This document shows positions 16,862-39,161 of a stretch of 64,000 nucleotides of DNA, piece by piece. Under the pieces are notes generated by a model. It was given only the letters and a program-made list of their open reading frames with translations. It was not told the origin of the DNA and did no database searches. Both the position numbers and the translations under genes were made by a program. Position 1 is the stretch's first letter. Every line of letters begins with the position of its first letter. Origin of the DNA: Phycisphaerales bacterium (lineage in GTDB: Bacteria; Planctomycetota; Phycisphaerae; Phycisphaerales; SM1A02); the NCBI GenBank assembly GCA_029247205.1, contig JAQWLT010000031.1, positions 1-64,000 on the forward strand. Reading direction: 5' to 3'.

Positions 16862-17281
16862 ATGAAGCCATCACTTCAAATTGGCGAGATATGCGAGGTC
16901 CAGGTGCAGGTCACCGAAGACATGTGCCCCGCCTTCGATGGCATCATCGTGCACCACGTGTACTCGACCTGGTCGATGGCCCACCACATGGAACTCGCGG
17001 CCCGCAAGGTGCTCGCACCGCACCTCGAGGCAGATGAAGAGGGAATCGGTGGTCATCTCTCAATCGATCATGTTGCCCCCGCAATCGTTGGTACGAGCGT
17101 CTGTGTTCGTGCCGAGGCCATCTCTGTAGATGAATCAGGCGTGACTTGCGAGGTGACGGCGTGGCAGGGTGATACCCTGCTCGGTCGCGGGCGGCAGGTG
17201 CAGCGTGTGTTGCCCAAGTCGGTCCTTGCCAAGATCATCGACCGCGCCACTCGGCGCGATTCTTCGGAGCCTGCCCAGTGA
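16862..17281 (+). CDS. FlK-like hotdog-fold acyl-CoA thioesterase
   Basis: A 139-residue single hotdog-domain protein resembling fluoroacetyl-CoA thioesterase FlK: VYSTWSMAHHMELAARKVL, then EEGIGGHLSIDHVAPAIVG and a basic VLPKSVLAKII end. From memory of FlK, its triad is Thr42-Glu50-His76; here T36, E44 and H70 have the same spacing (8 and 26). It overlaps paaF by 4 bases, so it probably takes the place that PaaI occupies in proteobacterial paa operons, clearing dead-end aryl-acetyl-CoA thioesters. Substrate unproven. No clear ribosome site precedes ATG 16862, so it may be leaderless. Confidence 0.78.
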   Translation: MKPSLQIGEICEVQVQVTEDMCPAFDGIIVHHVYSTWSMAHHMELAARKVLAPHLEADEEGIGGHLSIDHVAPAIVGTSVCVRAEAISVDESGVTCEVTAWQGDTLLGRGRQVQRVLPKSVLAKIIDRATRRDSSEPAQ

Positions 17282-18062: not shown

Positions 18063-18869
18063 ATGGCAACCGCCACCGAGTTCAAAACCATTGCAATGAC
18101 TTGTGTCGACCACGTCGGCACAATCACCCTCAATCGACCCGATGTTCTGAACGCGTTCAATGACGACATGGGCGTTGAGTTCATCGCGGCGCTCAAGCAA
18201 GCCGCAAAGGACACAGATGTCCGCGTTCTTGTCATTACCGGAGCGGGACGAGCGTTTAGTAGTGGACAGGACCTTGGTGATCTCGAACGGAAGTATGTGC
18301 CCGGCCACGTGCCAGCTCTTGGAGCTGACCTTAAAAAACGCTACGACCCATGGGTCAAGCTGATTCGCGCGATGGACAAGCCAGTCATCGCTGCGGTCAA
18401 CGGAGTCGCCGCTGGTGCGGGATGCAGTCTTGCGCTTGCATGTGACTTGCGGATTGCATCTGAACATGCCAAATTTATCGAGGTCTTCATCAATGTCGGG
18501 CTCATTCCAGATACGGCCAGCACGTGGATGCTGCCGCGACTCATCGGGCTCGGCCGAGCAATGGAACTCTGCATGAGCGGCCGACCTGTCAAGGCCGACG
18601 AGGCACTCGCTATCGGTCTGGTCAATCAAGTCGTGCCCGCTGATGATCTTGAAGCGGCTGCCGCAAAGATGGCCGGCCGTCTGGCCTCTCTACCAGGCAA
18701 GGCACTCTCACTCACCAAGCGGCTACTCAACGAATCCTTTGAGCGATCACTTGTCGAACAACTTGACGCTGAATCGTTCGCTCAAGAAACTGCCGGCCGA
18801 ACGGCCGATCACTTTGAGGGCGTCACAGCCTTTCTCCAGAAACGCACGCCTGAATTTACAGGTAAGTAG
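18063..18869 (+). CDS. paaG: Epoxyphenylacetyl-CoA isomerase (oxepin-CoA forming), PaaG type
   Basis: A crotonase-fold isomerase (268 residues) that converts ring-1,2-epoxyphenylacetyl-CoA to the oxepin. Unlike the preceding hydratase it has GAGCSLALACDLRIA with no glutamate in that loop, and INVGLIPDTASTWMLPRLIG, whose aspartate fits the PaaG catalytic residue. The FSSGQDLGDLERKY segment and the C-terminal RTPEFTGK fit the family. It lies between paaF and paaH with 8-base gaps on both sides, so it is certainly co-transcribed. Confidence 0.88.
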   Translation: MATATEFKTIAMTCVDHVGTITLNRPDVLNAFNDDMGVEFIAALKQAAKDTDVRVLVITGAGRAFSSGQDLGDLERKYVPGHVPALGADLKKRYDPWVKLIRAMDKPVIAAVNGVAAGAGCSLALACDLRIASEHAKFIEVFINVGLIPDTASTWMLPRLIGLGRAMELCMSGRPVKADEALAIGLVNQVVPADDLEAAAAKMAGRLASLPGKALSLTKRLLNESFERSLVEQLDAESFAQETAGRTADHFEGVTAFLQKRTPEFTGK

Positions 18870-18877
18870 GACCACAG

Positions 18878-20086
18878 ATGCCAACGGTTGGAATACTCGG
18901 AGCTGGCGCCATGGGCGCTGGTATTGCGCAGGTCGCGGCGACCGCTGGCTGGGACGTGCGGCTCATCGACGTCGATCCAGCGACTGCAACCGCTGCCATT
19001 ACGGGAATTGAAAAACGAATTGAGCGCAGTGTCGCCAAGGGTCGAATGACGTGTGAGCAAGGCAAGACGCTCATGCAACGGCTCCACGCATCGGTCATGA
19101 CAGATCTCAACAACTGCGACCTCTTCATCGAAGCTATTGTCGAGGATCTCAACATCAAGGTTGCGGCCATGACCCCCGCAATTGAAGTACTGCCTGAATC
19201 AGCCATCATTGCAACCAACACATCATCACTCTCGGTCTCTGAACTGGGCGAGCGAATCGGGCAACCGGCCCGAACCTGCGGCATGCACTTCTTCAATCCT
19301 GCGCCGATCATGAAGCTCGTTGAAGTTGTTCGTGGTAAGTCCACCGACGATGCGTTGCTTGATCGCGTCGCGGACATCGCAGCGTCTTGGGGAAAGCAGG
19401 TGGCCCGCTGCGCCGACACCCCCGGCTTTATCGTCAACCGAGTGGCACGACCCTATTACCTCGAAGCATTTCGCTGCCTCGAAGACGGGGTGGCCGACCC
19501 GGCGACAATCGACGATGCCATGCGGAGCATCGGCGGATTCCGTATGGGCCCATTTGAACTCACCGACTTCATTGGCCATGACGTCAACACCGCGACAACT
19601 CGAAGTGTGTGGGAACAGTGGGACCGCCCCTCGCGGCTCTCGCCAAGCGCCACGCAAGAACGACTTGTCTCAGACGGCACGCTTGGCAAGAAGAGTGGCT
19701 GTGGCGTCTACGACTGGTCAGGTGACTCGCCGGTATGCGTGCTGCGACCGCCACAGGACGGCCGCACAGCCAGCGACGGCTTATCTGGCCCGGCGTCGGA
19801 ATTCTGCCTCAAGGCAACGATTGATTCGGACAGCGCAGCCAAGGCCTCCGATGCGCAGCGAATCGTATTCACACGAATCCTGCTTGCCGTACTCAACGAA
19901 GCCGCATGGGCTGCGCACGATGGCGTCGCCGAGCCCGCAGACATCGACATCGCGATGCGTGCCGGGGTCAATTATCCGCGTGGGCCCTTTGCGTGGTCGC
20001 AAGACATCGGAGAGTCAGTCGTGTCCGAAACGCTTCGTGCACTTGACGATTCCGTTGATGACGGGCGATTCTCGCCGCCCGGCTGA
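18878..20086 (+). CDS. paaH: 3-hydroxyacyl-CoA dehydrogenase (3-hydroxyadipyl-CoA), PaaH type
   Basis: An NAD-dependent dehydrogenase of 402 residues oxidising 3-hydroxyadipyl-CoA to 3-oxoadipyl-CoA. The Rossmann motif is GILGAGAMGAGIAQVAA (residues 5-21), GMHFFNPAPIMKLVEVVRG holds the catalytic histidine region, and DTPGFIVNRVARPYYLEA starts the C-terminal domain. A second, degenerate 3HCDH_C-like copy follows (about 320-395). Shorter than E. coli PaaH (about 475). It ends four bases from the convergent kinase gene, so the pathway continues only beyond that gene with paaJ. Confidence 0.88.
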   Translation: MPTVGILGAGAMGAGIAQVAATAGWDVRLIDVDPATATAAITGIEKRIERSVAKGRMTCEQGKTLMQRLHASVMTDLNNCDLFIEAIVEDLNIKVAAMTPAIEVLPESAIIATNTSSLSVSELGERIGQPARTCGMHFFNPAPIMKLVEVVRGKSTDDALLDRVADIAASWGKQVARCADTPGFIVNRVARPYYLEAFRCLEDGVADPATIDDAMRSIGGFRMGPFELTDFIGHDVNTATTRSVWEQWDRPSRLSPSATQERLVSDGTLGKKSGCGVYDWSGDSPVCVLRPPQDGRTASDGLSGPASEFCLKATIDSDSAAKASDAQRIVFTRILLAVLNEAAWAAHDGVAEPADIDIAMRAGVNYPRGPFAWSQDIGESVVSETLRALDDSVDDGRFSPPG

Positions 20087-23349: not shown

Positions 23350-24567
23350 ATGCCGCCCATGCCACGCCGCGCCGCCATCGTGTCCGCCGTTCGTACCCCC
23401 TTTGGCAGGTATGCCGGCGGTCTAAGCAGTATTCGCCCCGATGATTTAGCCGCCCATGTCATTCGCATCGCCGTCGAACGAGCCGGCATTGACCCAACCA
23501 CCATCGATGACGTCTATCTTGGTGCCGCCAATCAGGCAGGCGAGGACAATCGCAATGTTGCCCGAATGGCCGCCCTGCTCGCCGGACTTCCGCTCGAGAC
23601 TCCAGGCTGCACGGTCAATCGCTTGTGCGCTTCCGGACTTGAGGCAATCAATATTGCGGCAAGAATGATCGAGGCCAATGCGGGTGATGTGTATATCGCC
23701 GGCGGCGTCGAAAGCATGAGCCGCGCTCCATTTGTCATGGCCAAAGGCACGCGTGCCTTCGACCGTACACACGACGTTCATGACACCACCATTGGTTGGC
23801 GTTTCACGAACCCCACACTCGCCGCGATGTACCACCCCTTTGGCATGGGCGAAACTGCCGAAAATGTCGCACGAAAGTTTGGCATCTCGCGTGAGGCCCA
23901 AGACCGCTTTGCTGTACTCAGCCAACAACGCTGGGCGCTTGCCGATGAAATGGGTTTCTTTGCAGACGAACTTGTCCCAGTCGAGGTGCCACAACGCAAG
24001 GGCGACCCACTGATTGTGGATCGAGACGAACACCCACGATCCGGAACAACGCTCGAAGCGCTTGCCAAATTGCGGCCTGCTTTCGCGACTGACGACCTTG
24101 GCACTGTGACAACAGGCAACTCCAGCGGCGTCAATGATGGCGCTGCCGCCCTCGTGCTGATGGAGGCCGAACGGGCAGTTGCCCAAGGGCTACCAATCTT
24201 AGCACTGGTCGGCCCCTCCGCCTCGGCAGGCGTTGATCCGGCAACCATGGGCCTCGGGCCAATTCCTGCCACACGCAAAGTCTTAGATCGCGCCAAATTG
24301 AAAGTTGCCGATATTGACCTGTTTGAGCTCAATGAGGCCTTTGCCGCGCAGTCAATTGCGTGCACACAGGAACTGAATCTCGATCTTGACCGCGTTAACG
24401 TCAAAGGTGGTGCAATCGCGATTGGGCATCCACTCGGCGCCAGTGGTGCCCGTCTTGCAACAACCCTTGTTCACGAGATGATTCGACGTGAATCTCGCCA
24501 TGGTGTGGCTACACTCTGTGTAGGCGTTGGGCAGGGACTTGCGACTGTGTTTGAACACCCTGCCTAA
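23350..24567 (+). CDS. paaJ: 3-oxoadipyl-CoA / acetyl-CoA acyltransferase (thiolase)
   Basis: A thiolase of 405 residues that cleaves 3-oxoadipyl-CoA (and possibly the C8 intermediate) to succinyl-CoA and acetyl-CoA. The nucleophile lies in NRLCASGLEAI (C93), and the C-terminal catalytic motifs are GGAIAIGHPLGASGAR and ATLCVGVGQGLA. NEAFAAQS and the SRAPFVMAK segment are typical of PcaF/PaaJ. It heads the second paa transcription unit, 34 bases before paaA. A general beta-ketothiolase would look similar; context decides. Confidence 0.88.
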   Translation: MPPMPRRAAIVSAVRTPFGRYAGGLSSIRPDDLAAHVIRIAVERAGIDPTTIDDVYLGAANQAGEDNRNVARMAALLAGLPLETPGCTVNRLCASGLEAINIAARMIEANAGDVYIAGGVESMSRAPFVMAKGTRAFDRTHDVHDTTIGWRFTNPTLAAMYHPFGMGETAENVARKFGISREAQDRFAVLSQQRWALADEMGFFADELVPVEVPQRKGDPLIVDRDEHPRSGTTLEALAKLRPAFATDDLGTVTTGNSSGVNDGAAALVLMEAERAVAQGLPILALVGPSASAGVDPATMGLGPIPATRKVLDRAKLKVADIDLFELNEAFAAQSIACTQELNLDLDRVNVKGGAIAIGHPLGASGARLATTLVHEMIRRESRHGVATLCVGVGQGLATVFEHPA

Positions 24568-24601
24568 GATCAACCGTCACACGTGCGAAAGGACTACTGC
24601 T

Positions 24602-25624
24602 ATGAGCGGCGCTGCAAACCCTGTCTCGCCTCCGGATATCACAATCACGGCCGACCCTGAAAAGTTGGCCGCGTTTGAGCAACGCATCGCAGATGGAATC
24701 CTGATCGAGCCAGGTGACTGGATGCCTGACTCGTATCGCACGCTGATGCTCCGCATGGCTGAACACCACGCCAATAGTGAGATCATCGGCGCGCTGCCTG
24801 AAGGCGAATGGATCACCCGCGCGCCAAGCATGCTTCGCAAACTCGCGTTAACTGCCAAGGTGCAGGACGAAGTTGGCCATGGACAAATGCTCTACCGCGT
24901 TTCGCAAGAACTCGGCAAAAGTCGCGACGACATGCTTCGCGACCTCGTGACTGGCGTGACCAAATACCACAACTGCTTCAACTACCCGTGCCCTACATGG
25001 GCGGACATTGCGATGGTTCAGTGGCTCATCGATGGGGCTGCCATCATGAACCAGAAGACACTCGCTGATGGCGCCTACGGCCCCTATGTCCGAACCATGA
25101 ATCGCATCAATATGGAAGAGGCCTTCCACTTCAAAAGTGGCGAGGACATGGTGCTCACGCTCATGAGCGGCACCAAGGGCCAGAAAGCGATGACGCAAGA
25201 AGCCTTCGATCGCTGGTGGCCAATCTCTCTGGCATTCTTTGGCCCCGCCGATAAACCAAATTGCGAAGAGTTGCCTCCAATGAAATGGCGACTGAAGATC
25301 GAACGAAACGACTCTCTTCGTCGTCGCTTTGTCAATCGGTTTGCTCCCGCTGCCATCGATCTTGGCCTCATCATCAATGTGGTCACCAAGAATGAGCAGG
25401 GCTTCGTAACATCTGCCAAACCCGATGAGGCCATCGCATTGGACAAGTCGACCGGAGACTGGTCCTTCACACAACCAGATTGGGATGAGTTCTGGAGAGT
25501 CATTCGTGGCAACGGCCCATGCAATGCGCACCGACTTGCCTTGCGGCGGTTCTCCTATGACCAAGGCGCGTGGGTTCGCCGGGCAATTGGCGATGGAGCG
25601 GTGGCCACGCCACCTGCTGCCTAA
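24602..25624 (+). CDS. paaA: Phenylacetyl-CoA 1,2-epoxidase, catalytic subunit A
   Basis: The diiron catalytic alpha subunit of the multicomponent monooxygenase that epoxidises the ring of phenylacetyl-CoA. At 340 residues it has the family length. Ferritin-like iron-ligand motifs are KVQDEVGHGQMLY (E90, H93) and INMEEAFHFKSGED (E-E-x-x-H); KYHNCFNYPCPTWADIAMV is characteristic of PaaA. ATG at 24602 has GAAAGG about 9 bases upstream. It is immediately followed by paaB without any gap. Confidence 0.93.
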   Translation: MSGAANPVSPPDITITADPEKLAAFEQRIADGILIEPGDWMPDSYRTLMLRMAEHHANSEIIGALPEGEWITRAPSMLRKLALTAKVQDEVGHGQMLYRVSQELGKSRDDMLRDLVTGVTKYHNCFNYPCPTWADIAMVQWLIDGAAIMNQKTLADGAYGPYVRTMNRINMEEAFHFKSGEDMVLTLMSGTKGQKAMTQEAFDRWWPISLAFFGPADKPNCEELPPMKWRLKIERNDSLRRRFVNRFAPAAIDLGLIINVVTKNEQGFVTSAKPDEAIALDKSTGDWSFTQPDWDEFWRVIRGNGPCNAHRLALRRFSYDQGAWVRRAIGDGAVATPPAA

Positions 25625-26233
25625 ATGTCAAAAGTGCGAGAACGAACGAGGTCGCCAGAGGGTGATCTCCCTGCCCCCACCCCGGACGCCAAGCAGTGGG
25701 TCGTCTACACACAAAAACGTGAGGGGGCCCCATTCAAGTGGGCCGGGACAGTCGAGGCAGTCGACACCGAACTCGCCCTGCAGTACGCAAGGGAGCACTA
25801 CGGGCTTGATGAAGCCTGTGTGGGCCTCATCACCTATGAGCATGGCGACAGTGTTGACGGCGAATACAGCATTGGGCCGCTTGTGCCTCAGAAAGCTGAT
25901 GGCACAGATGGGGACGAGTGGCTCGTCTTTACGCTCGCCAAGCGTGGCGGCAATCACCAAACTGCCGGAACAGTCAACGCACCCGATGCCGCAACCGCAA
26001 TCAACCGTGGCACTGCAGCATTCGCCGATGGCAAAGCATGCAATATTCGCGTCGTCCTTGCCAGCGATGTACATGAGACGACCGACGAAGAAATGGTCAT
26101 CTGGCGAACACATGACATGACCTACAAACTGGCCAAGGGCTATAGCAAGCAAGTGCGCTCCAAGTGGACTCGCATCCGCGACAACCCGGCCTACGAGCAA
26201 TACCAAAAAGAAGACATCGAAACGCACTTCTAA
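25625..26233 (+). CDS. paaB: Phenylacetyl-CoA epoxidase subunit B, tandem-domain form
   Basis: PaaB is a small non-catalytic subunit needed for epoxidase complex assembly, normally a single domain of about 95 residues. This protein has 202 residues and reads as two PaaB-like units: 24-77 (QWVVYTQKREG...WAGTVEAVDTELALQYARE) and 98-165 (EWLVFTLAKRGG...TAGTVNAPDAATAINRG), sharing the W-V-hydrophobic strand, GTV and alanine helix. The second unit ends with the PaaB-like IWRTHDMTYKLAKGY. The ATG directly abuts the paaA stop. No frameshift signs; it looks like an ancestral duplication or fusion. Confidence 0.82.
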   Translation: MSKVRERTRSPEGDLPAPTPDAKQWVVYTQKREGAPFKWAGTVEAVDTELALQYAREHYGLDEACVGLITYEHGDSVDGEYSIGPLVPQKADGTDGDEWLVFTLAKRGGNHQTAGTVNAPDAATAINRGTAAFADGKACNIRVVLASDVHETTDEEMVIWRTHDMTYKLAKGYSKQVRSKWTRIRDNPAYEQYQKEDIETHF

Positions 26234-26245
26234 GGCAAACGCATC

Positions 26246-27010
26246 ATGCAGAACATGCTGGCAGACCAACTCGCAAATATCGTGCTGATGCACGCCGATG
26301 ACAAACTCATGCTCGGCCACATCCAGAGCGACTGGACTGGGCTCGCGCCAATACTTGAAGAAGACATCGCCGCTTCGGCAATGGCCCAAGATGATCTCAG
26401 CCATGCGCTGGTGTTGTATGAGTTTCTTGGCGAACGGTTCAAACTTGATCCGGATGCCATTGCATTCGACCGTGACCCCTGCGACTACCGCTGCTGCGAC
26501 TTGGTGACGATCCCAGATGAGTTTGACTGGGCCACTTCGGTGGTCAAGCGATGGCTCACCGCTACATTCTCTCAATTGGGCCTTCACCGGCTTGCAACAA
26601 TGACTGAAGGTGATCTCGGAGATCGTGCCAAACGACTGCTAGATGAGCAAACTATCCAAGTCACCCATCTCAACCGTTGGATGACACGCCTCGGCCGTGG
26701 CTCTATAGAGTCGCATGATCGCATGCAAGCGGCGCTGGACCGCCTCTCAAGTTCGGCTGGCATGATGTTCGAGCCGCCAGACGCCACACTTACTGAAGAC
26801 GAATCGTTCTGCTGCGGACGCGACGAGCTCTTTACTGAGTGGGCCAAAGGCATTGGCATCACACTTGACGCTGCCGGCCTGTCGGCGACAATCACGCTGC
26901 CAGATCGATCAACAGGCGGCGGTCGACGCGGCGAACATGCGCCGCACTTCATCGATCAACATGCTGAACTTACCGAAGTACGGCACAGTGACCCGGCTAC
27001 GTCATGGTGA
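26246..27010 (+). CDS. paaC: Phenylacetyl-CoA epoxidase subunit C
   Basis: The structural ferritin-like beta subunit of the PaaABC epoxidase, 254 residues. Start ANIVLMHADDKLMLGHIQSDW matches the PaaC N-terminus (LADDxLILGxRLSEW style), and AMAQDDLSHALVLYEFLGER holds a D-D-x-x-H motif (D49, D50, H53). Later helices include TFSQLGLHRLATM and HLNRWMTRLGRG. It overlaps paaD by 7 bases. PaaC pairs with PaaA; context and motifs make this secure. Confidence 0.9.
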   Translation: MQNMLADQLANIVLMHADDKLMLGHIQSDWTGLAPILEEDIAASAMAQDDLSHALVLYEFLGERFKLDPDAIAFDRDPCDYRCCDLVTIPDEFDWATSVVKRWLTATFSQLGLHRLATMTEGDLGDRAKRLLDEQTIQVTHLNRWMTRLGRGSIESHDRMQAALDRLSSSAGMMFEPPDATLTEDESFCCGRDELFTEWAKGIGITLDAAGLSATITLPDRSTGGGRRGEHAPHFIDQHAELTEVRHSDPATSW

Positions 27011-27492
27011 GCATCGCTGACATCGATGGCGTGCTCGATGGGGTACCGGATCCCGAGTTGCCGATCAGCATTGTGGAACTCGGCATGGTCATCGGCGTTG
27101 AGTTGCAGGGCAGCGAAGCGAACATACGTCTCGTACCCACCTATACGGGTTGCCCAGCACTTCCAATGATTGAAAAAGATGTGCGAGAGCAAGTCGGACA
27201 ACTCGATGGAATCGACTCTTGCACCGTGCAGTGGTGCTTTGAACCAGCATGGACACCCGATCGGATCTCACCAGGAGGCCGCGCCAAACTGTCGGCCCAC
27301 GGCGTCACCACGCCCGCGTGTGCTTGCAGCGGTCAGACCACGGTCATTCTTCGTACCTCAGCCATCGGATGCCCCTACTGCGGCTCATTCAATACCAGGG
27401 TCGACAGTCCATACGGGCCGACTCGATGCCGCGCCATCCACTTTTGTGAGGCCTGTAGAAACCAGTTCGAGCACATGAAGCCGCGAAGCTAA
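27004..27492 (+). CDS. paaD: PaaD, MIP18-type Fe-S assembly protein for the epoxidase system
   Basis: A 162-residue protein. Residues 5-85 form a MIP18/DUF59 domain (VPDPELPISIVELGMVIGVE, PTYTGCPALPMIEKDV), and the C-terminus is a zinc ribbon with CPYCGS and CEACRNQF. PaaD is needed for phenylacetyl-CoA epoxidase activity, probably by maturing an Fe-S cluster of the reductase PaaE. PaaE itself is not in this window. It overlaps paaC by 7 bases and is the last recognised epoxidase gene, 42 bases before the dehydrogenase E1 alpha gene. Confidence 0.9.
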   Translation: MVSIADIDGVLDGVPDPELPISIVELGMVIGVELQGSEANIRLVPTYTGCPALPMIEKDVREQVGQLDGIDSCTVQWCFEPAWTPDRISPGGRAKLSAHGVTTPACACSGQTTVILRTSAIGCPYCGSFNTRVDSPYGPTRCRAIHFCEACRNQFEHMKPRS

Positions 27493-27534: not shown

Positions 27535-28701
27535 ATGTCTGGCCTAGAACCTGACAAACCGATCGAAGCCTCGTGTGACCCAATGCAGGCATCTCCACCG
27601 CTCCCTGCGAGCGGATTTAACACTCGCGCAATTGATCTGGGCCGTATCGAGTGTCTGCAAATACTGGATGAGCATGGCGATATCGAAGAGGGGCTCCAGC
27701 CCGATATCGAAGACAACGAATTGCTCCGTGTCCATCGTGCAATGCTCTTAAGCCGCGCCTTCGACTCGCGCATGCTTGCCATGCAACGCCAAGGACAGAT
27801 GGGCACATTTGCTCCAAACCTGGGGCAAGAAGCGTGCATGATCGGGCAGGTTTGGCCTCTTGGCGATGAGGATTGGTTCTCACCCTCGTACCGTGCCTTT
27901 GGCGCGCAGATTTGGCGCGGCTGGTCGATGGAACGCCTGATGACGCTTTGGGCTGGATACCACGACGGCTTTCCTCCGCCCGATGATGTGAAGGATCTAC
28001 CATTTTCGATTGTCATTGGCTCGCATGTCCTACCCGCAACGGGCATTGCCATGGCCATGCGCCGGGCCAAAGACCCACACTGCATGGTTGTCAACTTCGG
28101 CGATGGGGCATTCTCCCAAGGTGCGATCACCGAAGCAATGAACTTCGCGGCTGTTGATCAAGCGCCTATCGTCTTTGTGTGCGAGAACAATGGCTGGGCG
28201 ATCTCAACACCACTGGATAAACAGGCTGGAAATGAAGTGCTTGCCGCACGTGGCGCCGGCTATGGCGTGCACTCGATTCGTGTCGACGGCAACGACATCC
28301 TTGCCATGATGACAGCGATGAAAGAAGCCTGTGATCGAGCTCGACGCGGCGAAGGACCAACCCTGATCGAAGCCATCACGTTTCGGATGAGTTTGCACAC
28401 AACCGCCGATGATCCCACTGTCTATCGCGACGAGTCGCTCGTCGAGCCATGGCACAACCGGTGCCCTATTCGACGATTTGAGTTATGGCTCACACGCACC
28501 AATCGACTGACCACACAAGACTGCGATCGTATTCGCGAGGAGTGTGAGCAAGAGGTACTCGATGCGCGTGCGTACTTCCGCAAAAACGCGACTGCAAAAC
28601 CGCGCGAGATATTCGATCACATCTACGACACCATCACCCCTGAACTCGAATCGCAGCGCATGGATTACCTTCGCCGCCTCGATCGCAAGGGGGTGGAGTG
28701 A
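27535..28701 (+). CDS. 2-oxoacid dehydrogenase complex E1 alpha subunit
   Basis: The thiamine-diphosphate-binding alpha subunit of a pyruvate or branched-chain/aryl 2-oxoacid dehydrogenase, 388 residues. Motifs: MQRQGQMGTFAPNLGQEAC, the TPP site VNFGDGAFSQGAITEAMNFA with the terminal ENNGWAIS, and a phosphorylation-loop-like YRDESLV. The sequence style is that of heterotetrameric PdhA/BkdA1 enzymes, and substrate cannot be decided from it. Downstream of paaD and overlapping E1 beta by one base (TGATG), so the complex appears to be transcribed with the paa genes. Confidence 0.87.
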   Translation: MSGLEPDKPIEASCDPMQASPPLPASGFNTRAIDLGRIECLQILDEHGDIEEGLQPDIEDNELLRVHRAMLLSRAFDSRMLAMQRQGQMGTFAPNLGQEACMIGQVWPLGDEDWFSPSYRAFGAQIWRGWSMERLMTLWAGYHDGFPPPDDVKDLPFSIVIGSHVLPATGIAMAMRRAKDPHCMVVNFGDGAFSQGAITEAMNFAAVDQAPIVFVCENNGWAISTPLDKQAGNEVLAARGAGYGVHSIRVDGNDILAMMTAMKEACDRARRGEGPTLIEAITFRMSLHTTADDPTVYRDESLVEPWHNRCPIRRFELWLTRTNRLTTQDCDRIREECEQEVLDARAYFRKNATAKPREIFDHIYDTITPELESQRMDYLRRLDRKGVE

Positions 28702-29687
28702 TGCCCAAATGCACAATGGTGGAGGCTCTCAATCTGGCGCTCGATGAGGCGCTGGGGAATGATCAACAAGTCTGCTTGATGGGACAAGACATCGGCGTCA
28801 ATGGTGGTGTGTTCCGGGTCACCAAAGATCTCCAAACTAAGTACGGCGCCGACCGCGTGATGGATACACCCCTGGCCGAATGTGGCATCATTGGTACCGC
28901 TGTGGGCATGGCGATCTATGGAATGAAACCCATTGCCGAGATTCAATTCTCTGGCTTTACGATGCAGGCCTTTGACCAAATCGAGCAGAATATGGCTCGC
29001 TATCGCAATCGCACCCAGGGCCGATTCAACATCGACATGGTGATGCGAGCGCCCTACGGTGGGGGCATTCGAGCCGTAGAACATCACAGTGAATCACGCG
29101 AAGCCTATTGGGTTCACACGCCTGGCCTGAAGGTGGTCATTCCATCTGGGCCACGCAATGCTCGCGCCTTACTGGCGGCCTCCATTGCTGACCCAGGACC
29201 CGTCATCTTCTACGAGCCAAAGGCCATCTACCGCGCCTTCCGCGAGGATGTTCCTGACTCGCCGGAAACGATGGAACTTGGCAAGGCCAATATCGCGCAG
29301 TCTGGCGATGACATCACAATCATTTCGTATGGCGCCATGATGCGGCCTGCCCGTGAAGCGGTTGAAGATCTCACCGAGTTACACAGCATCAACGCCGAAC
29401 TCATTGACCTCTTAACGATCTCGCCAATTGATACTGAAACGCTGCTGCAATCAGTGACCAAGACAGGCCGCTGCATCATCGTGCATGAGGGACACCAAAC
29501 GTGCGGCGTCGGTGCTGAGATCGCAGCAAGGCTCGCCGAGGGTGGTGCGTTCGAGTATCTCGTTGCGCCGCTTAAACGCTTGACAGCCCCGGACATCCCC
29601 CACCCCTACTTCCAAGTTGAACAGCACTTCCTACCCGACCCAGATGACATCATCGGCGCGGCGCGGGAACTCATGGAGTGGACCTAG
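28701..29687 (+). CDS. 2-oxoacid dehydrogenase complex E1 beta subunit
   Basis: A transketolase-like beta subunit of 328 residues that completes the E1 active site. Conserved segments are MGQDIGVNGGVFRVTKDL, DTPLAECGIIGTAVGMAIYG, APYGGGIRAVEHHSES and the C-terminal domain with VHEGHQTCGVGAEIAARL and RLTAPDIPHPYF. ATG 28701 is favoured (GGAG upstream) over a GTG three bases earlier. With E1 alpha it decarboxylates the 2-oxoacid and acylates the lipoyl group of E2. Confidence 0.9.
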   Translation: MPKCTMVEALNLALDEALGNDQQVCLMGQDIGVNGGVFRVTKDLQTKYGADRVMDTPLAECGIIGTAVGMAIYGMKPIAEIQFSGFTMQAFDQIEQNMARYRNRTQGRFNIDMVMRAPYGGGIRAVEHHSESREAYWVHTPGLKVVIPSGPRNARALLAASIADPGPVIFYEPKAIYRAFREDVPDSPETMELGKANIAQSGDDITIISYGAMMRPAREAVEDLTELHSINAELIDLLTISPIDTETLLQSVTKTGRCIIVHEGHQTCGVGAEIAARLAEGGAFEYLVAPLKRLTAPDIPHPYFQVEQHFLPDPDDIIGAARELMEWT

Positions 29688-29692
29688 TCGAA

Positions 29693-31000
29693 ATGACCTC
29701 GACGATGTATCAATTCAAGTTGCCCGATCTCGCCGAGGGTGTCCATGAAGGTCAGGTCATTCGCGTGCACGTGCAGGCAGGGCAATCGGTTTGCGAAGAC
29801 GATCCACTGATGGAAGTCGAAACCGACAAAGCCGCCGTCGAAATCCCCTCTCCGGTATCCGGCCGCGTCGTCGAAGTACATGTATCCGAGAGCGAACTTG
29901 TTCACGTTGGCGACGTCATGGTTACGTTTGATAGCTCCAGCGCTCCAGCGGCGAGTGCGCCGGCTCCAGCTACAACCACCACGCCCATTGCAGCAACGAA
30001 CACACCTCCTGCCGATCCGAGTGGCAAGCGAAGGCCCGCATCACCCTCGGTACGTCGACTTGCACGGGAACGCGGGCTCGACCTCACCCAAGTACGCGGA
30101 TCAGGACCTGGCGGACGTGTTACTCGCGCTGATGTCGAGCAAGCCGCAACTGCTCGAATGACTGACTCGCAGGTACCCCCCCCGGCCGTCTCGCCCGACG
30201 TCTTGAGCAGTGAGACATCCACACCGATCGCTGCAGTCCGCATTACGCCTCCGCAATCAACTCCAACGACTGCCATTGAAGGCGTTGCTGACAGTGATCA
30301 GTACGGAAGTATCGTTCGGCAAGGTCTCTCGCAAGCCCGGCGAACAATCGCTCGCGTCATGCAAACATCGTGGCAGACGATTCCACATGTCACCGATAGC
30401 AATGACGCTGACATCACCGAACTTGAGGCAATGCGTGGCTCTTTTGTTGACAGCGATTATCCAGATCGCCGCATCACGACACTCGCATTTGTTATTCGCG
30501 CCGTATGCCGAGCGATGCAGAAACATCCAATTCTCAATGCCACGCTTGATCTAGAACGCGACGAAGTGATCTTTCGCGAATATGTCAATATCGCAGTAGG
30601 TGTGGAAACACCCCGCGGACTCGTCGCGCCTGTCATTCACAACGCACATCTCATGGGCATTGGTAAGATTTCTGACCACCTAGCGGTCATGGCGCACAAC
30701 ACCCGAAGTGGTGCCTTTGGCGTAGAAGACACTCGCGGTGCGACTTACACAATTTCAAACGCCGGTGCCATGGGGCGAACGCGATACTCAACACCCATCA
30801 TCATGCCTGGCACCGTCGCTTGCCTAGCAGTTGGCCGTGCCCGCAAAATGCCATGGGTCGTTGATGATGAAATCGTGCCACGCCTGATCATGCCACTCAG
30901 CCACTCCATGGATCATCGTCTCGTGGACGGCGGCCGCGAAATCCCCTTCATTGGGCATGTCATCGATGATCTTGAACACCCCATGCGGTTCGCTCTCTAG
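29693..31000 (+). CDS. Dihydrolipoamide acyltransferase (E2)
   Basis: A 435-residue E2 core protein with three parts: one N-terminal lipoyl domain (about 5-80, lipoylation lysine in VETDKAAVEI), a proline/alanine linker, a peripheral-subunit-binding domain (SPSVRRLARERGLDL, GSGPGGRVTRADV) and the catalytic acyltransferase domain ending in SHSMDHRLVDGG, whose His and Asp are the active site. It transfers the acyl group to CoA. ATG 29693 is chosen; alternatives are GTG 29678 (overlapping E1 beta) and ATG 29705. Product could be acetyl-, branched-acyl- or aryl-acetyl-CoA. Confidence 0.88.
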   Translation: MTSTMYQFKLPDLAEGVHEGQVIRVHVQAGQSVCEDDPLMEVETDKAAVEIPSPVSGRVVEVHVSESELVHVGDVMVTFDSSSAPAASAPAPATTTTPIAATNTPPADPSGKRRPASPSVRRLARERGLDLTQVRGSGPGGRVTRADVEQAATARMTDSQVPPPAVSPDVLSSETSTPIAAVRITPPQSTPTTAIEGVADSDQYGSIVRQGLSQARRTIARVMQTSWQTIPHVTDSNDADITELEAMRGSFVDSDYPDRRITTLAFVIRAVCRAMQKHPILNATLDLERDEVIFREYVNIAVGVETPRGLVAPVIHNAHLMGIGKISDHLAVMAHNTRSGAFGVEDTRGATYTISNAGAMGRTRYSTPIIMPGTVACLAVGRARKMPWVVDDEIVPRLIMPLSHSMDHRLVDGGREIPFIGHVIDDLEHPMRFAL

Positions 31001-31068
31001 CAATAGATGCGGTTCGTTATCGTTATAGACCGCTCCCCCCAATGGGGAGTCTCTACGAAAGGAAGACC

Positions 31069-32254: not shown

Positions 32255-33577
32255 ATGGTTGTGGGTGAATTTACAGAAGATGCAGATATCGTCGTCATTG
32301 GCGGTGGGCCCGCTGGCTACGCCTGCGCCTTTCGCGCGGCTGAATTGGGCCGGGATGTGGTCTTGGTTGATCCTCGTGGCGTGCTTGGTGGGAACTGTCT
32401 GCACGAAGCATGTATTCCAACCAAGACTGTGCTGCATGCAATTGATCTGACTCGGCAGTCATCGCACCCATGCCTGACGGGCGATCCTCCCAGCATCGAC
32501 GCCGACGCAACCCGCAAGTGGATTGACCGCATCACCAAGCGGCTTGGTGGTGGGCTCGCTGCGGCGGCAAAGGCCAAAGGCGTTGAGATTCTTGCCGGTC
32601 GTGCAAGGTTTCTCAGCAACCGCGAGATTCAAGTTGCAGGGGAACACGTCAGCCGAATTCGATTCAAGCGGGCAGTCATTTGCTGCGGCGGTGGCGAGCA
32701 ACAATCCGCTAACGGGGCATTGACAGTCAATGCACTGTGCGATTCGCTTGATCGCGTGAGCGGCACAGCCGTCGTTCTTGGGAATGGGCCGTGGGCCCTT
32801 GAAGCAGCCGCGATCTGCTACAGCATGGGGGCATCCACCACGCTCGTGCCAGGCAAGCACCCTGTGCTGCCGGGCGTGCCCACCCAACTTGTCGACACCA
32901 TTGGCAAGGCCTGTGGTTTTGACATCATGCAAACCGGCGAAGCCAGTGTTGAGGCGACCAATGATGGTTGCCGCATTACAGTTGGCGAGCAAACGCTTGA
33001 CCCTGATGTCTTCATCGATGCCTCATCCAAACCACCAAACCTCGACGGCCTCGATCTTGACGCTGCAGGCGTAGAACTCACTGACGGAGGTTTGATTGAC
33101 ACTGATGAACGTTGCGTCACCAGCGAACCCCGCATCCTTGCTGCCGGAGCCTGCGCCGAAAGTATGGGGGACGCAGGCATGTCGCTTGCACAGGGACGCG
33201 TAGCCGCAGAAGTCATCGCTGGCCGCGCTGCCGCCTGGGACCCTGCCGCCGTTCCGACACTGGTGTTCTCGCATCCACAACTTGCATGGTCTGGATCATG
33301 CCCAGACGACGCCGAAACGCTACTCATCCCGTGGTCGCATAGTGGGCTCGCCATCGGTATGAATGCTGGCACCGGTTGCACACTGATCTGCTGGGACAAG
33401 GAATCAGGCACGCTGCTCGGCGCTGGGGCTGTTGGCGTTGGGGCATCCGAAATGGCAGACCTCTTTACGGTCACGATTGAACTCGGCTCTACGTTGCAGG
33501 ACCTCGCTGACATGTCGCCAGCTCACCCCACCCGCAGCGAGTTGCTGCTCGAAGCGGCGCGGCAGGCACTCGGATGA
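32255..33577 (+). CDS. lpd: Dihydrolipoamide dehydrogenase (E3), divergent
   Basis: A flavin disulfide reductase of 440 residues that reoxidises the lipoyl group of E2 with NAD+. FAD motif VVIGGGPAGYACAFRAAELG, redox disulfide GGNCLHEACIPTK (C48 and C53), an NAD-domain segment VVLGNGPWALEAAA, and the C-terminal HPTRSELL with the catalytic histidine. Overall divergent from standard E3: the NAD motif lacks the usual GxGxxG form (GNGPWA) and the central domain is short of several consensus positions. The pairing with E1/E2 genes supports the call. Its stop overlaps the next gene by 4 bases. Confidence 0.85.
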   Translation: MVVGEFTEDADIVVIGGGPAGYACAFRAAELGRDVVLVDPRGVLGGNCLHEACIPTKTVLHAIDLTRQSSHPCLTGDPPSIDADATRKWIDRITKRLGGGLAAAAKAKGVEILAGRARFLSNREIQVAGEHVSRIRFKRAVICCGGGEQQSANGALTVNALCDSLDRVSGTAVVLGNGPWALEAAAICYSMGASTTLVPGKHPVLPGVPTQLVDTIGKACGFDIMQTGEASVEATNDGCRITVGEQTLDPDVFIDASSKPPNLDGLDLDAAGVELTDGGLIDTDERCVTSEPRILAAGACAESMGDAGMSLAQGRVAAEVIAGRAAAWDPAAVPTLVFSHPQLAWSGSCPDDAETLLIPWSHSGLAIGMNAGTGCTLICWDKESGTLLGAGAVGVGASEMADLFTVTIELGSTLQDLADMSPAHPTRSELLLEAARQALG

Positions 33578-34047: not shown

Positions 34048-34656
34048 TTACGCGTCCCGGCTCGTCTTCTTGGTCTCGTACAACACATCAGGAACACGCT
34101 GCGCCAAGCGACTTTCAGAAGCTGACGAAAGAGGCTCTACTTCTTCTTCGGTCTGAAGATGTCGCTGCGCCAAGTGCTGATACACCTCGGTGCCCCGCGA
34201 CTTCCAGCCGATCTCCTTTTCAGAGAGTTCGCGAATCTGCTTGGCTGGCGACCCAGCCCACAACGTATTGGTCGGAATCTCAGTTCCTTCCTTCACAAAT
34301 GCAAGTGCGCCAACGATACTGTTCTCGCCGACGACCACGTCGTCCATAAGTACGGCATTCATTCCAATGAGTGCGTTACGGCCCACCGTGCACCCATGGA
34401 GAACCGCCCCGTGACCAACGTGACCGTTCTCGTGAACGACCACGTCCTTTCCGGGAAAGCAGTGCACCACGCATGTGTCTTGTACATTGCTGCCAGCCTT
34501 GAGTTCAAGGCGACCAATATCACCGCGAAGAACAGCGGCTGGCCCCACGAGACAGCCCTCACCAATGATGACATCCCCGATGAGCACCGCTGTTGGATGC
34601 ACAAACGCGCTTGGGTCGACGACCGGCGTGATGCCTTCATACTTATAAGATGGCAT
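34048..34656 (-). CDS. paaY: PaaY-like hexapeptide-repeat protein (gamma-carbonic-anhydrase fold thioesterase)
   Basis: A left-handed beta-helix protein of 202 residues. [40 protein letters not shown] and [24 protein letters not shown] match PaaY closely, including metal-binding histidines. Known PaaY proteins hydrolyse CoA thioesters such as the inhibitory 2-hydroxycyclohepta-1,4,6-triene-1-formyl-CoA formed when the pathway stalls. The start overlaps the paaN stop by one base, so both are co-expressed. A plain gamma-carbonic anhydrase is the alternative. Confidence 0.87.
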
Positions 34657-36350
34657 CAGCTGACGGCCTCTTCAACAGGCGCCGGAACTGGAACGCGACT
34701 GGCCACAAAGCGGAATCGATCGGCCACAAATGCAGCGTCGCACAACGTGGCGTTGCCAGATGGATTGGCACCAGACACATGAAAGTCACTGAACGCAGAT
34801 GACTGATTGACCCAAATCTGCCCTGATAAATTACAAGATGTCGAGACACCCGCAGCGGTCAATGCATCTACAGCACGATCCAGCACATCATTGCTTCGGC
34901 TCCAGACAGCTGCGGTCAAGCCTCCTTGTGATCGCGCCGTATCAGCTGCGATCGCAATTGACTCGGCTGAGTCGGCCGTCCGAACGATGTACACGATTGG
35001 GCCGAATGCTTCTTGTTGATACTGCAACGCATCGCTGGCATCAACTTGCAAGATCAGCGGTGTGGCAGTGCGAGCGTCTGGGAATCGCTCGTTATCGATC
35101 GTAGTGGAATCTCGCAGAACGGTCGTTGCCGAGCTTCGGGCGGCGTCAATTCTCGCTGCAGTGTGCGTTGATTGAATCGCACCCAACACTTCTGCAGCAC
35201 GAGCAGGGTCAGATACAAACCAGTCCACAGCCTTCACGATTGCGGCGGCAGCATCATCAAAGGACATACGACCCTCAGGCGTGTCAATGCCACCTTCCGG
35301 AATGTAGATATTCTGCGGGGTCGTGCACATCTGACCAGAGAACAAGCAGAGTGAGAACGCGATATTTCCGGTCGTACCACGCACGTCATCAGTTCCATCG
35401 AGCACAATCGAGTTCACGCCAGCCTTTTCGGTATAGACCCGGGCTTGGCGGGCATGTGCTTCAATCCAATCTCCAAAGGCGTTCCCGCCAGTAAAGTCGA
35501 CAATGCCAATATCGGGCCGCGTCACAAGGTCTTGGGCCACTGGCTCATCGTGTGAATCGCAAACCAATGTGATGACATTGGGATCAAAACCTGCTTCAGC
35601 CAAGACTTCTCTCATGACTTCTACTGTGATCGCAAGAGGCAACACCGCGCCAGGATGGGGTTTGACGATCACTGCATTACCGGTGACCAAACTGGCAAAG
35701 ATGCCGGGGTATCCATTCCATGTGGGGAAGGTCGAGCAGCCCACCGTCACGCTGATGCCGCGCGGAATGATTCGCCACGTCTTCTCAAGCGTCACGGTTT
35801 CGGTCTTCGAGACACGCTTCTGCCATGTTGCTGTCGTCGGGCAGCGTTTCATTTCTCGGTAAGCGTAGGCCACTGCTTCAAGTCCACGATCCTGCGCATG
35901 TGGACCACCCGCTTGGAAGGCCATCATGAATCCTTGGCCAGTGGTGTGCATGACTGCGCAGGCCATCTCGAATGAGCGTTGGTTCAAGCGATGTAAGATT
36001 TCAAGACACACGCCAGTTCGCGTCTCGATTGTTGCCTGTTGCCATGCTGTACATGCAGCACCGACAGATTCGCACAGAATGTCGAGATCAACACGTGGAT
36101 ACGAGATGCCCGTCTCGATTCCATACGGAGACTGCTCTCCATCGATCCACCCGTTGATGCCAGGTTGATCAAGTTCAAAGCGGCCACCTAATCTTGACTT
36201 CCACGCTTGGCGCCCATCTTCCTTCGCAGTCTCGCCATAGATGCGTCCGCTTGGAACCTCGGGGTAGGCCGACCAGAACCCACGGGTCTCACTGGCGGCC
36301 AGGGCCCCGTCGAGTGTCTCGCGATATCTTTCAAACCAGTCTTGTGCCAC
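34656..36350 (-). CDS. paaN: Phenylacetate degradation aldehyde dehydrogenase PaaN
   Basis: A 564-residue aldehyde dehydrogenase of the PaaN type. The N-terminal region ([30 protein letters not shown]) is characteristic of PaaN and absent from ordinary aldehyde dehydrogenases. The NAD fold has [18 protein letters not shown], the active-site region [14 protein letters not shown] and the nucleophile in [11 protein letters not shown]. It probably oxidises the ring-opened semialdehyde to 3-oxo-5,6-dehydrosuberyl-CoA. The hydratase domain that PaaZ uses for oxepin opening is missing, so ring opening must involve another protein. Upstream of paaY in one operon. Confidence 0.87.
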
Positions 36351-36468
36351 GGGTGATCTCCTTCAAACGAGATGCATTGTAGGTCCACTGAGTGCCGAGG
36401 CATGGCTCGGCTCGCTGCCGACTGTACAATTGACTCGGCCATCCATTGTTGGAGGCGACGAATACTCG

Positions 36469-38553
36469 ATGACCACACCCCCACATACCGCCGGACTACG
36501 CAAAGACATTTCACTCTTTGGCGTTTTTGCGATCGCTCTGGGCACTACGATCAGCAGTGGTTTCTTCCTCCTTCCCGGCTTGGCCTTTGCTCAGGCCGGC
36601 CCAGCCATCATTGTCTCGTACTTGCTTGCAGGGCTTGTAGTTCTCCCCCCCCTACTCTGTAAATCGGAACTCGCTACAGCCATGCCTCGGGCAGGGGGCG
36701 TGTACTTCTACATGGACCGCGCATTTGGACCGCTTGCAGGCACCATTGCTGGGCTGAGTACATGGATCTCGCTCACGCTCAAGACCTCCTTTGCCCTCGT
36801 TGGTTCAGGCTACTACATTGGACTTTTCATTCCTGATCCACCAGTTCTGCTCATTGCGATCGTTCTTGCGCTGCTCTTTGGCGGGATCAACCTCCTGGGT
36901 GCAGGCAAGACAACGCGCATGCAATCAATGCTGGTAATCTGCGTACTCGTGCTTCTCTGCTGGTTTTCCACATGGGGCAGCTTTGACATCGACACAAGCC
37001 GATTCAACAACTTCTGGGGTGCCGGAAGTGAAACCGTCATTTCAATGGTAGGCGTTGTCGTAGTTTCGTATATGGGGCTGACCAAGGTGGCGACTCTCGC
37101 CGAGGAGGTCCGTAATCCTGAACGCAATCTCCCACGTGGCATGCTTCTTGCACTCTTGGCAGCGGGTCTTATCTACATGACAGGGTTGGCCGTGATGATC
37201 GGTGTCATTCCTGCAGCGGAGCTGGCAGAGACGTATACACCTGCAGCACTCGCTGCCAAGTACTTCTCAGGCCAAGCCGGCATGATCACCATTTCTATTG
37301 CTGCCATTGCGTCATTCTTATCTGTTGCCAATGCCGGCATCTTGAGCGCCTCCCGATATCCATTGGCGATGGCTCGTGATCACATCTTCCCTCGCTTGTT
37401 TCGTCGGCTAGGCCGATTTGGGACACCGCTCCCGGCCATTTCTTTGACAGTGGCGCTGATCATTGCAGAAGTCATTTTTCTCGATCCACTCATCATTGCA
37501 AAGTACGCCGGCACAATGAAGCTTCTTCTCTTTGCCGGCGTATCTGCAGCGGTCATCGTCATGCGAGAAAGCAAACTCGATTCATATGACCCAGGGTTCA
37601 AAGTTGCTTGGTATCCATGGGTCCCACTGCTTGGCATCGTCCTGTGCGTGGCTGCAATATCCGTTCTTGGAGCCGCCTCAATCATCTTTGCGGTCATCAT
37701 GATCGCGATCGCCGTCATCTGGTTCCATTTCTATGCATCCGACCGTGTCGATCGATATGGCGCCATCTTTCACGTCTTTGCAAGACTCGGCGAGCAACGA
37801 TTTGACGCGCTCGACACCGAGTTGCGTGGCATCATCAAGGAGAAAGGGCTCCGGGCTGCAGATCCATTCGATGAGACGATTGCGAAGGCTCGCGTATTGG
37901 AAGGCGACGCTGGAACCGACTTTGAAACCCTTGCCGCTGAAGTCGCCGGTGCCCTCTCGACTGAGACCGGTCGCTCTTCCAAGCACTTCCTTCAGGGATT
38001 CTTGGAAGGCACGCAGATTGGAGCGACGCCCGTCACGGGTGGCGTGGCGCTTCCCCACCTTCGGCTACAAGGGCTTCAGCGATCCCACCTGGTTCTTGTG
38101 AGATGCAAAAATGGCCTGAATCTTGAAGTTGGCTCGGGAATACCTGGCGGCAAGTCATCACAACATGTGCAGGCACTCTTTTTCATGGCAAGCCCCGAAG
38201 AAGATCCTGCGCAACATCTGCGATTGCTTGCCAGCCTTGCCGGTGCAGTCGAGCAAGAGGGGTTCATGAATCGCTGGCTCGGTGCCGAAGGGCATGCCGA
38301 TCTGAAGGCTGCACTCCTGCGAAGCGATTACAGTCTGACACTCACAATCGAAGCTGGTTCGCTTACGGGAACCTGGATTGACCGATCAATCGCCTCGCTC
38401 GATTTACCGGATGGCATCCTGGTTGCGCTGGTACATCGCGGCACCGAACGAATTATCCCAACTGGCCGCACGAAGATTGAACGTGGCGATCGCGTCATCG
38501 TCATTGGTGAACAGGATGATATTCAACAACTGCGGCAGGACCTTGGCCTCTAG
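36469..38553 (+). CDS. APC amino-acid permease fused to PTS EIIA-like and RCK_C-like domains
   Basis: A 694-residue three-part protein. Residues 10 to about 420 are an APC-family transporter with about 12 membrane helices (start ISLFGVFAIALGTTISSGFF, then TLAEEVRNPERNLPRG). Residues about 450-590 resemble a PTS EIIA (fructose/nitrogen) domain with GGVALPHLRL, keeping the phospho-accepting histidine position (H530) and FFMASPEEDPAQHLRLLASL. Residues about 618-694 look like RCK_C/TrkA-C (ERIIPTGRTKIERGDRVIVIG), a ligand-binding regulatory domain. ATG 36469 is preferred; an in-frame TTG at 36430 is weaker. Divergent from paaN, suggesting import of a pathway substrate. Confidence 0.82.
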   Translation: MTTPPHTAGLRKDISLFGVFAIALGTTISSGFFLLPGLAFAQAGPAIIVSYLLAGLVVLPPLLCKSELATAMPRAGGVYFYMDRAFGPLAGTIAGLSTWISLTLKTSFALVGSGYYIGLFIPDPPVLLIAIVLALLFGGINLLGAGKTTRMQSMLVICVLVLLCWFSTWGSFDIDTSRFNNFWGAGSETVISMVGVVVVSYMGLTKVATLAEEVRNPERNLPRGMLLALLAAGLIYMTGLAVMIGVIPAAELAETYTPAALAAKYFSGQAGMITISIAAIASFLSVANAGILSASRYPLAMARDHIFPRLFRRLGRFGTPLPAISLTVALIIAEVIFLDPLIIAKYAGTMKLLLFAGVSAAVIVMRESKLDSYDPGFKVAWYPWVPLLGIVLCVAAISVLGAASIIFAVIMIAIAVIWFHFYASDRVDRYGAIFHVFARLGEQRFDALDTELRGIIKEKGLRAADPFDETIAKARVLEGDAGTDFETLAAEVAGALSTETGRSSKHFLQGFLEGTQIGATPVTGGVALPHLRLQGLQRSHLVLVRCKNGLNLEVGSGIPGGKSSQHVQALFFMASPEEDPAQHLRLLASLAGAVEQEGFMNRWLGAEGHADLKAALLRSDYSLTLTIEAGSLTGTWIDRSIASLDLPDGILVALVHRGTERIIPTGRTKIERGDRVIVIGEQDDIQQLRQDLGL

Positions 38554-38588
38554 TTCAGTACTACACCTCTTTGACCCTGGAGCTCTTC

Positions 38589-39161
38589 ATGGAAACGAAC
38601 TCACCAACCGCTGCCAAGCGACGCATTGATCCGATCGACCAGCCCCGCCGACAAACGGGTACATGGATGACAATGCTCGACGGCGTACTGCTCATTCTCA
38701 TTGGCGTGGTACTCGTGATCCCATCTCAAGAAGCACATGATTGGCTCATTCGCGGCCTCGGTCTATTGTTGTGCGCGGCAGCATTTGGCGTTGGGGCGAA
38801 GTTATGGATAGCCAGCACCGCACGGAGATATGGACTGTTTGCTTGGATTGCATGCATCGCGCCGCTGGTAGTCGGCTTGATTCTCTTGATTTGGCCGAAG
38901 GAGTCGCTTGATGCCATCACGGTCACTGTCGGCGTGGTCGTACTGATTCGTGGTGTGATTGAGACAGGCATCGGCCTGTCAGTTCGGCCAGGCAATGGGT
39001 GGGAGCTGTGGCTCATCCGAGGTCTTGTCACCATCGGCTTGGGCATCTTCTTCCTTGCCGTCAAGGAGTGGGCGGCCTACTTGCTATTGATCCTACTCGG
39101 CATCGATCTCGTTGTTCGCGGAGCAACCGGCTTGTCTGGACACAAGCCTTCGGGGCAGTAG
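38589..39161 (+). CDS. HdeD-like (DUF308) multi-pass membrane protein
   Basis: A 190-residue inner-membrane protein with about six short hydrophobic helices after a charged N-terminus: MLDGVLLILIGVVLVIPSQE, WLIRGLGLLLCAAAFGVG, LVVGLILLIWPKESLDA, ITVTVGVVVLIRGVIE, LVTIGLGIFFLAVKEW and LLLILLGIDLVVRGATGL. The repeated LLILLGxxxLVRG pattern fits the HdeD/DUF308 family, whose role in most bacteria is unclear (acid resistance in E. coli). GGAG sits 6 bases before ATG 38589. It lies 35 bases downstream of the permease gene, so possibly co-transcribed. Confidence 0.75.
   Translation: METNSPTAAKRRIDPIDQPRRQTGTWMTMLDGVLLILIGVVLVIPSQEAHDWLIRGLGLLLCAAAFGVGAKLWIASTARRYGLFAWIACIAPLVVGLILLIWPKESLDAITVTVGVVVLIRGVIETGIGLSVRPGNGWELWLIRGLVTIGLGIFFLAVKEWAAYLLLILLGIDLVVRGATGLSGHKPSGQ

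Follow-up and report, generated by a model that had tools for sequence, protein, structure and literature searches.

We analysed a 64,000-nucleotide stretch of the genome of a Phycisphaerales bacterium (GCA_029247205.1, contig JAQWLT010000031.1, positions 1 to 64,000; hereafter, the window), which carries on its forward strand a permease gene (36469..38553) encoding a protein of 694 amino acids. The open frame, Pfam matches, and AlphaFold agree on the order of its parts: an APC transporter domain, a linker, an EIIA domain of the phosphotransferase system (PTS), and an RCK_C domain; across the same interval, the opposite strand holds just frames of 109–126 amino acids. A first-pass annotation of this DNA had proposed that an APC transporter, an EIIA-like domain, and a TrkA-C-like domain are joined in one polypeptide, with a profile search for the two accessory domains as the check. 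Both domains were accepted, all three parts score above their Pfam cut-offs, and the predicted structures agree. The APC domain (residues 14–404, 36508..37680, + strand), assigned by Pfam and by structure, matches AA_permease_2 at residues 14–399 (152 bits, E 3.1e-44, cut-off 27). The EIIA domain is of type 2, i.e., PtsN-like (residues about 475–620, 37891..38328, + strand), and matches PTS_EIIA_2 (PF00359) at residues 498–616 (47.6 bits, E 2.2e-12, cut-off 27). The RCK_C (TrkA_C) domain (residues 622–694, 38332..38550, + strand) matches TrkA_C (PF02080) at residues 635–691 (52.8 bits, E 3.7e-14, cut-off 27). The EIIB and EIIC domains of PTS sugar permeases gave no Pfam match in the protein up to E 1.

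The folds support these assignments. The AlphaFold model of the whole protein, computed from 45 aligned rows (the window protein and 44 planctomycete homologues chosen for near-full-length coverage), has a mean predicted local distance difference test score (pLDDT) of 83.6, and its membrane part folds like solved APC carriers, 5oqt being the best match (TM-score on the target 0.85, E 4.4e-22, 29% identity). The closest solved relative of this domain is 5oqt/6f34, a bacterial CAT homologue that we take to be GkApcT. A separate model of the tail (residues 424–694; mean pLDDT 80.3) was aligned by VIA-align to EIIA-Ntr proteins with Z-scores of 17.7–18.8, the best EIIA match being 2a0j (Z 18.8, root-mean-square deviation 2.3, 146 residues). 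Since EIIA matches occupied the VIA-align table, the RCK_C part was judged by Foldseek and by profiles; this end of the tail model matches 5f29, 4ys2, and 3jxo, with TM-scores on the target of 0.77 for 5f29_B and 0.72–0.73 for 3jxo. The histidine of the ALPHLR motif, picked out by the first-pass annotation, is confirmed as residue 530. H530, the putative phosphorylation site of the EIIA domain (codon 38056..38058, + strand), and the second active-site histidine, H583 (codon 38215..38217, + strand), are invariant in all 45 rows, even in those of 35% identity to the window protein. Between carrier and EIIA lies the membrane-proximal linker (residues 425–474, 37741..37890, + strand). Among the 36 rows of RCK_C type, its mean column entropy is the lowest of the four parts (1.12 bits, against 1.43 for APC, 1.85 for EIIA, and 1.94 for RCK_C), as expected of a part that passes a signal.

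The build is shared by many relatives. APC and EIIA were found in 45/45 rows (EIIA at E 0.001 or better) and TrkA_C in 36, the other nine being APC-EIIA proteins that lack RCK_C. The rows were selected by length, with weaker matches outside the scan, so the 45/45 shows a build that is old and kept and is not proof for every relative. Matches at E 1e-60 or better occur in at least 53 of 392 genomes across the phylum, a lower bound, as two candidates per genome were scored. A single change accounts for the RCK_C group on a carrier-domain tree, where its support is modest (66/79). Two further planctomycete permeases (L087 5060–7717 and L088 4482–7181) carry a Usp-like stretch between APC and EIIA and no RCK_C; one of these stretches scores just below the Pfam cut-off and the other above it. 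The domains themselves are ordinary; their combination is unusual and conserved. No APC-EIIA-RCK_C protein is described in the titles and abstract openings of the papers listed in the literature searches, and fusions of IIA with transporters are possibly mentioned in earlier PTS literature.

Divergent from the permease is paaN (34656..36350, − strand; TIGR02288, 788.3 bits, cut-off 578.75), as the first-pass annotation had stated. Between the two genes (window 36376–36469), TACAAT occurs as two outward-facing boxes, one a possible −10 element of the permease (36425..36430, + strand) and the other, facing paaN, a possible divergent −10 element (36376..36381, − strand); the window has five copies of the hexamer in all, these two included, where 10.3 would be expected. 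After the permease box comes TCNGCCA, a motif that is conserved in front of related permeases. The sequence TACAATNNNNTCCGCCA was found in 7/92 loci, always just upstream of such a permease, and the window carries its TCGGCCA variant. The TACAAT boxes are putative promoter elements. In related loci, an inverted repeat CCGCC...GGCGG, noted by eye, lies between the −10 box of the permease and its start codon and overlaps a stretch resembling a ribosome-binding site (GGGGCGG/GGAGGCG); it is possibly a leader hairpin or an operator. Downstream of the permease is a gene for a DUF308 membrane protein (38571..39161, + strand; Pfam), a neighbour kept in the related loci of the clade described below.

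A phenylacetate (paa) cluster lies on the far side of paaN. PaaA, PaaC, PaaD, and PaaN score above their NCBIfam cut-offs and PaaB above its Pfam cut-off, while the names paaF, paaG, paaH, paaJ, and paaY denote best matches that score under the cut-off of the named model. On the + strand are genes for a paaF-like enoyl-CoA hydratase (17278..18054), a paaG-like isomerase (18063..18869; TIGR02280, 283.1 bits, cut-off 345), a paaH-like 3-hydroxyacyl-CoA dehydrogenase (18878..20086), and a paaJ/pcaF-like thiolase (23350..24567; TIGR02430, 549.3 bits, cut-off 597). They are followed on the same strand by paaA (24527..25624; TIGR02156), whose match starts at residue 50, so that the true start is probably downstream, and by paaB (25625..26233; PF06243, in two stretches), paaC (26246..27010; TIGR02158), and paaD (27004..27492; TIGR02159). 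A paaY-like gene for a hexapeptide protein (34048..34656, − strand; TIGR02287, 277.8 bits, cut-off 319.6) adjoins paaN. In one relative (G003), paaN and paaY are separated by a gene whose product has a trypsin-like peptidase domain (L104 9985–11790).

Between paaD and paaY, the window carries E1-, E2-, and E3-like genes of a 2-oxoacid dehydrogenase, all on the + strand: an E1 alpha-like subunit (27535..28701), an E1 beta-like subunit (28698..29687; best NCBIfam match below cut-off), an E2 acyltransferase (29678..31000; Pfam above cut-off), and an E3 resembling dihydrolipoyl dehydrogenase (32255..33577; best NCBIfam match below cut-off). A redoxin/TPR protein is encoded between E2 and E3 (31042–32184) and has a relative in locus L035. 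An E1 alpha of this type (at least 56% identity) was detected in 15 of 31 genomes, all of them PaaA-positive, and in none of the 15 PaaA-negative ones; the sixteenth PaaA-positive genome (G007) holds just a 38-residue piece of PaaA. A second, more distant E1 alpha match is present in 14 of the 15 genomes with the paa-type protein, so the latter is probably dedicated. From what is known of the pathway, the presence of E1, E2, and E3 in the paa cluster suggests that phenylacetyl-CoA is made from phenylpyruvate.

The link between permease and paa genes extends to other genomes. Among the 31 genomes, nine carry PaaA together with a close homologue of the permease. In seven of them (G000, G002, G003, G005, G008, G012, and G015), a single contig carries the two at a distance of 11–14 kb; G001 and G006 have them on separate contigs, and the E1 alpha of G006 shares the contig of the permease. 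G004 has a piece of the permease but lacks a PaaA match, and G007 shows the opposite; both metagenome-assembled genomes (MAGs) are incomplete. Of 52 loci, most of them with a flank of 1.5 kb only, 11 (from 10 genomes) have paaN next to the permease. The nine paaN-adjoining permeases included in the tree form one clade (support 100/100), and the divergent pair is kept over four genera within it. Eight loci outside this clade, inspected with wider flanks, showed no paaN; of the one neighbour scanned in each, six gave matches to six different families and two gave none. The tie to aromatic catabolism, which the first-pass annotation drew from paaN, is thus backed by a whole paa cluster in the window and by linkage conserved in related genera. 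The link is real for the permease's clade and not for the whole family.

Phosphorylation partners were sought in the organism's own genome, which is a MAG of 86% completeness. As the first-pass annotation had noted, neither enzyme I (EI) nor HPr is encoded near the permease: the sole HPr match, with the motif GLHARP, is on contig C58, and the N-terminal family of EI is unmatched in the genome. The HPr gene adjoins a ptsN-like EIIA gene and a gene resembling hpf by eye; a second free EIIA is encoded elsewhere, and no HPr kinase was found in the genome. The search for ptsH and ptsI that the annotation had proposed thus succeeded for HPr and failed for EI in the MAG itself, though EI is present, whole or in pieces, in 60/60 relatives (57 of the 61 genomes have it above the model's cut-off). 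In one relative (G001), the EI gene adjoins frames that we named by eye gatC and gatA. Our genome matches the G001 gatA from residue 104 on, up to the point where contig C11 ends. Since the contig ends at gatA, where EI is expected, its absence is best read as an assembly gap, on the basis of gene order in that one relative. Any suggestion of missing phosphorylation partners therefore lacks support, and a missing PTS is rejected for the lineage.

The EIIA domain belongs to a kind of module that phosphate from the sugar/nitrogen phosphotransferase relay usually switches; the RCK_C domain, of a kind that often senses small nucleotides, offers a possible second input. Two of its solved relatives, 5f29 and 4ys2, presumably from CpaA, bear titles that describe RCK domains with 'cda', which we took as cyclic di-AMP (c-di-AMP), and diadenylate cyclase genes are present in 60/61 genomes. 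On these two grounds, c-di-AMP is a candidate ligand of the domain. RCK_C domains that bind c-di-AMP occur in KtrA, KtrC, CpaA, KhtT, and BusR, as given in PMC8517857, and the USP domain of KdpD is likewise named a c-di-AMP receptor in PMC8214093. The genome also encodes a second, DacZ-like diadenylate cyclase (L082 5748–6617, below the DacZ model's cut-off), the gene of which adjoins frames that look like those of a peptidyl-prolyl isomerase and of GatB (identified by eye). Matches to this type of cyclase were found in 77/392 genomes of the phylum. Among the 61 relatives, a close permease homologue, pieces counted, accompanies it in 12/14 genomes, versus 11/47 of the others; these counts were made by eye, are uncorrected for kinship, and leave out a 36-bit match in G039. 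We rejected this co-occurrence as shared ancestry, as it is gone in the 392-genome sample (13/53 permease genomes versus 64/339 others).

The explanation that we prefer, at a probability of roughly one in two, is that the protein is an APC secondary carrier that takes up an aromatic amino acid (phenylalanine being the likeliest), with its EIIA tail as the control and RCK_C as a second input. It probably feeds the amino acid into the phenylacetate pathway and is governed by the energy state of the cell. Phenylalanine taken up in this way would be transaminated to phenylpyruvate, which the 2-oxoacid dehydrogenase of the cluster would convert to phenylacetyl-CoA, on which the Paa epoxidase acts. 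Phosphorylated HPr would phosphorylate H530, and this could alter the packing of the EIIA domain against the linker and RCK_C, and hence the inner gate. The state of EIIA would be passed on to the gate through the conserved linker, and uptake would track the phosphoenolpyruvate/pyruvate state, much as PtsN works in trans on the antiporter YcgO and a IIA tail works in LacS. RCK_C would dimerise and/or bind a small nucleotide, for which c-di-AMP is the candidate, as the second input. Gating of the permease by phosphate and by a nucleotide, as the first-pass annotation had envisaged, is plausible.

Several observations weigh against this explanation. No substrate model reached its cut-off, the best being TIGR00909 (194.7 bits versus 556.8), and the phenylalanine transporter model scored 79 versus 851. 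No aminotransferase was found among the window proteins scanned, which represent part of the window's frames. Close homologues occur in PaaA-negative genomes as well (G014 and G038), and a tie to aromatics therefore does not extend to the entire family; conversely, close permease homologues are missing from six PaaA-positive members of the 31-genome set (G011, G017, G018, G039, G043, and G047). On the PTS side, in addition to the EI gene absent from the MAG, the EIIA domain lacks the active-site arginine, a residue whose role is known from EIIA-Mtl and PtsN. The window protein has G514 instead, and at the site of the arginine in the PtsN of its genome, the 36 rows of RCK_C type have Gly (29), Ser (3), Trp (1), and Arg (3). 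The missing arginine argues against a fully canonical EIIA. Close to this position, residue 516 carries a basic side chain (Arg or Lys) in 22/36 rows and might compensate for the loss, which is a guess.

Among the alternatives, the strongest is that the substrate is not aromatic, for example a branched-chain amino acid, or is an aromatic acid (phenylacetate, for instance), and that the paa neighbourhood reflects shared regulation or inheritance. We regard this as a serious possibility, falling somewhat short of an even chance. It is consistent with the failure of every substrate model and with the second-best NCBIfam match, the branched-chain transporter BcaP (171.5 bits, cut-off 690), as well as with the family members in PaaA-negative genomes; the 2-oxoacid dehydrogenase may be of branched-chain type, and in G026 a gene for an aspartase/fumarase-type lyase lies just upstream of the permease on the same strand. 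Against it stand a divergent paaN-permease pair that persists across four genera and an E1 alpha type that goes with PaaA. Moreover, no PaaK-like ligase was found among the window proteins scanned, a search covering part of the window's frames, which fits entry through phenylpyruvate better than through phenylacetate.

A second alternative concerns the RCK_C domain, which might merely dimerise the protein and bind no ligand. This is possible, and we entertain it tentatively: the most conserved positions of the domain (R657, D674, G680, and P664) look generic by eye, and the permease has no RCK_N match in Pfam, but the 'cda' titles of 5f29 and 4ys2 and the near-universal diadenylate cyclase genes point towards a ligand. 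The more ambitious proposal, that a single chain integrates PTS phosphorylation at EIIA with c-di-AMP at RCK_C and so couples aromatic amino-acid uptake to both the energy and the turgor state of the cell, we consider unlikely. The same reading would extend to other members: as RCK_C and USP modules are both c-di-AMP receptors in other proteins, c-di-AMP and the PTS might jointly regulate much of this family of carriers.

According to a third alternative, the EIIA domain is a non-phosphorylated assembly or docking module, comparable to the EIIA-like folds that animal SLC4 anion exchangers have in their cytoplasmic domains. SLC4 transporters do match the tail model (7x1i, Z 14.4; 8jnj, Z 12.9), and the active-site arginine is missing in 33/36 rows of RCK_C type. 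We nonetheless find this rather doubtful, since H530 and H583 are invariant in a domain that is divergent overall, HPr and EI exist within the lineage, and the arginine is kept in 8/9 of the rows without RCK_C. A chance or artefactual fusion is ruled out by conservation of the three-part build in 36/45 rows.

Control of transporters in trans is a known activity of PTS-Ntr regulators. Here the EIIA is built in, beside RCK_C, and the permease offers a one-gene system in which to study how phosphorylation of an EIIA domain gates a carrier of the LeuT fold. It also points to one function that planctomycete PTS proteins may have, and the paa linkage yields a concrete substrate prediction.

Transporters with a IIA tail are a known kind, within which APC-EIIA-RCK_C is a variant. 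The lactose and raffinose permeases LacS and RafP are secondary transporters with a C-terminal PTS IIA domain, the histidine of which can be phosphorylated by HPr. As a secondary carrier with a C-terminal IIA domain, the permease has its closest parallel in build in these proteins; however, they combine a sugar carrier of the GPH family with a IIA of the EIIA-Glc type, whereas the permease combines AA_permease_2 with an EIIA of the Ntr/Mtl type (PF00359) and adds RCK_C. The solved carriers 5oqt and 6f34 share the APC fold, but their chains have 471 residues or fewer and no control tail of this kind. The free EIIA-Ntr/PtsN proteins (2a0j, 1a6j, and 3urr) share the fold and both histidines with the EIIA domain; in the permease, by contrast, the domain is fused to a carrier, and the arginine is replaced in most rows of RCK_C type. 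A permease of a Myxococcales MAG (L036 5983–8007; 25% identity) likewise joins APC to a C-terminal RCK_C, but has RCK_N in place of EIIA (APC-RCK_N-RCK_C). KtrA, KtrC, CpaA, KhtT, and BusR have the RCK_C fold in common with the permease, but in them, as described in PMC8517857, it belongs to cation transporters or to a regulator. The closest parallel that has been worked out is the E. coli K+/H+ antiporter YcgO, a transporter with a putative RCK domain under EIIA-Ntr control: unphosphorylated PtsN is reported to inhibit it by binding its cytoplasmic region and is proposed to keep the putative RCK domain from activating it (PMC11808508). There, PtsN acts in trans, probably on a CorC domain of a cation antiporter, whereas the permease carries its EIIA within the same chain.

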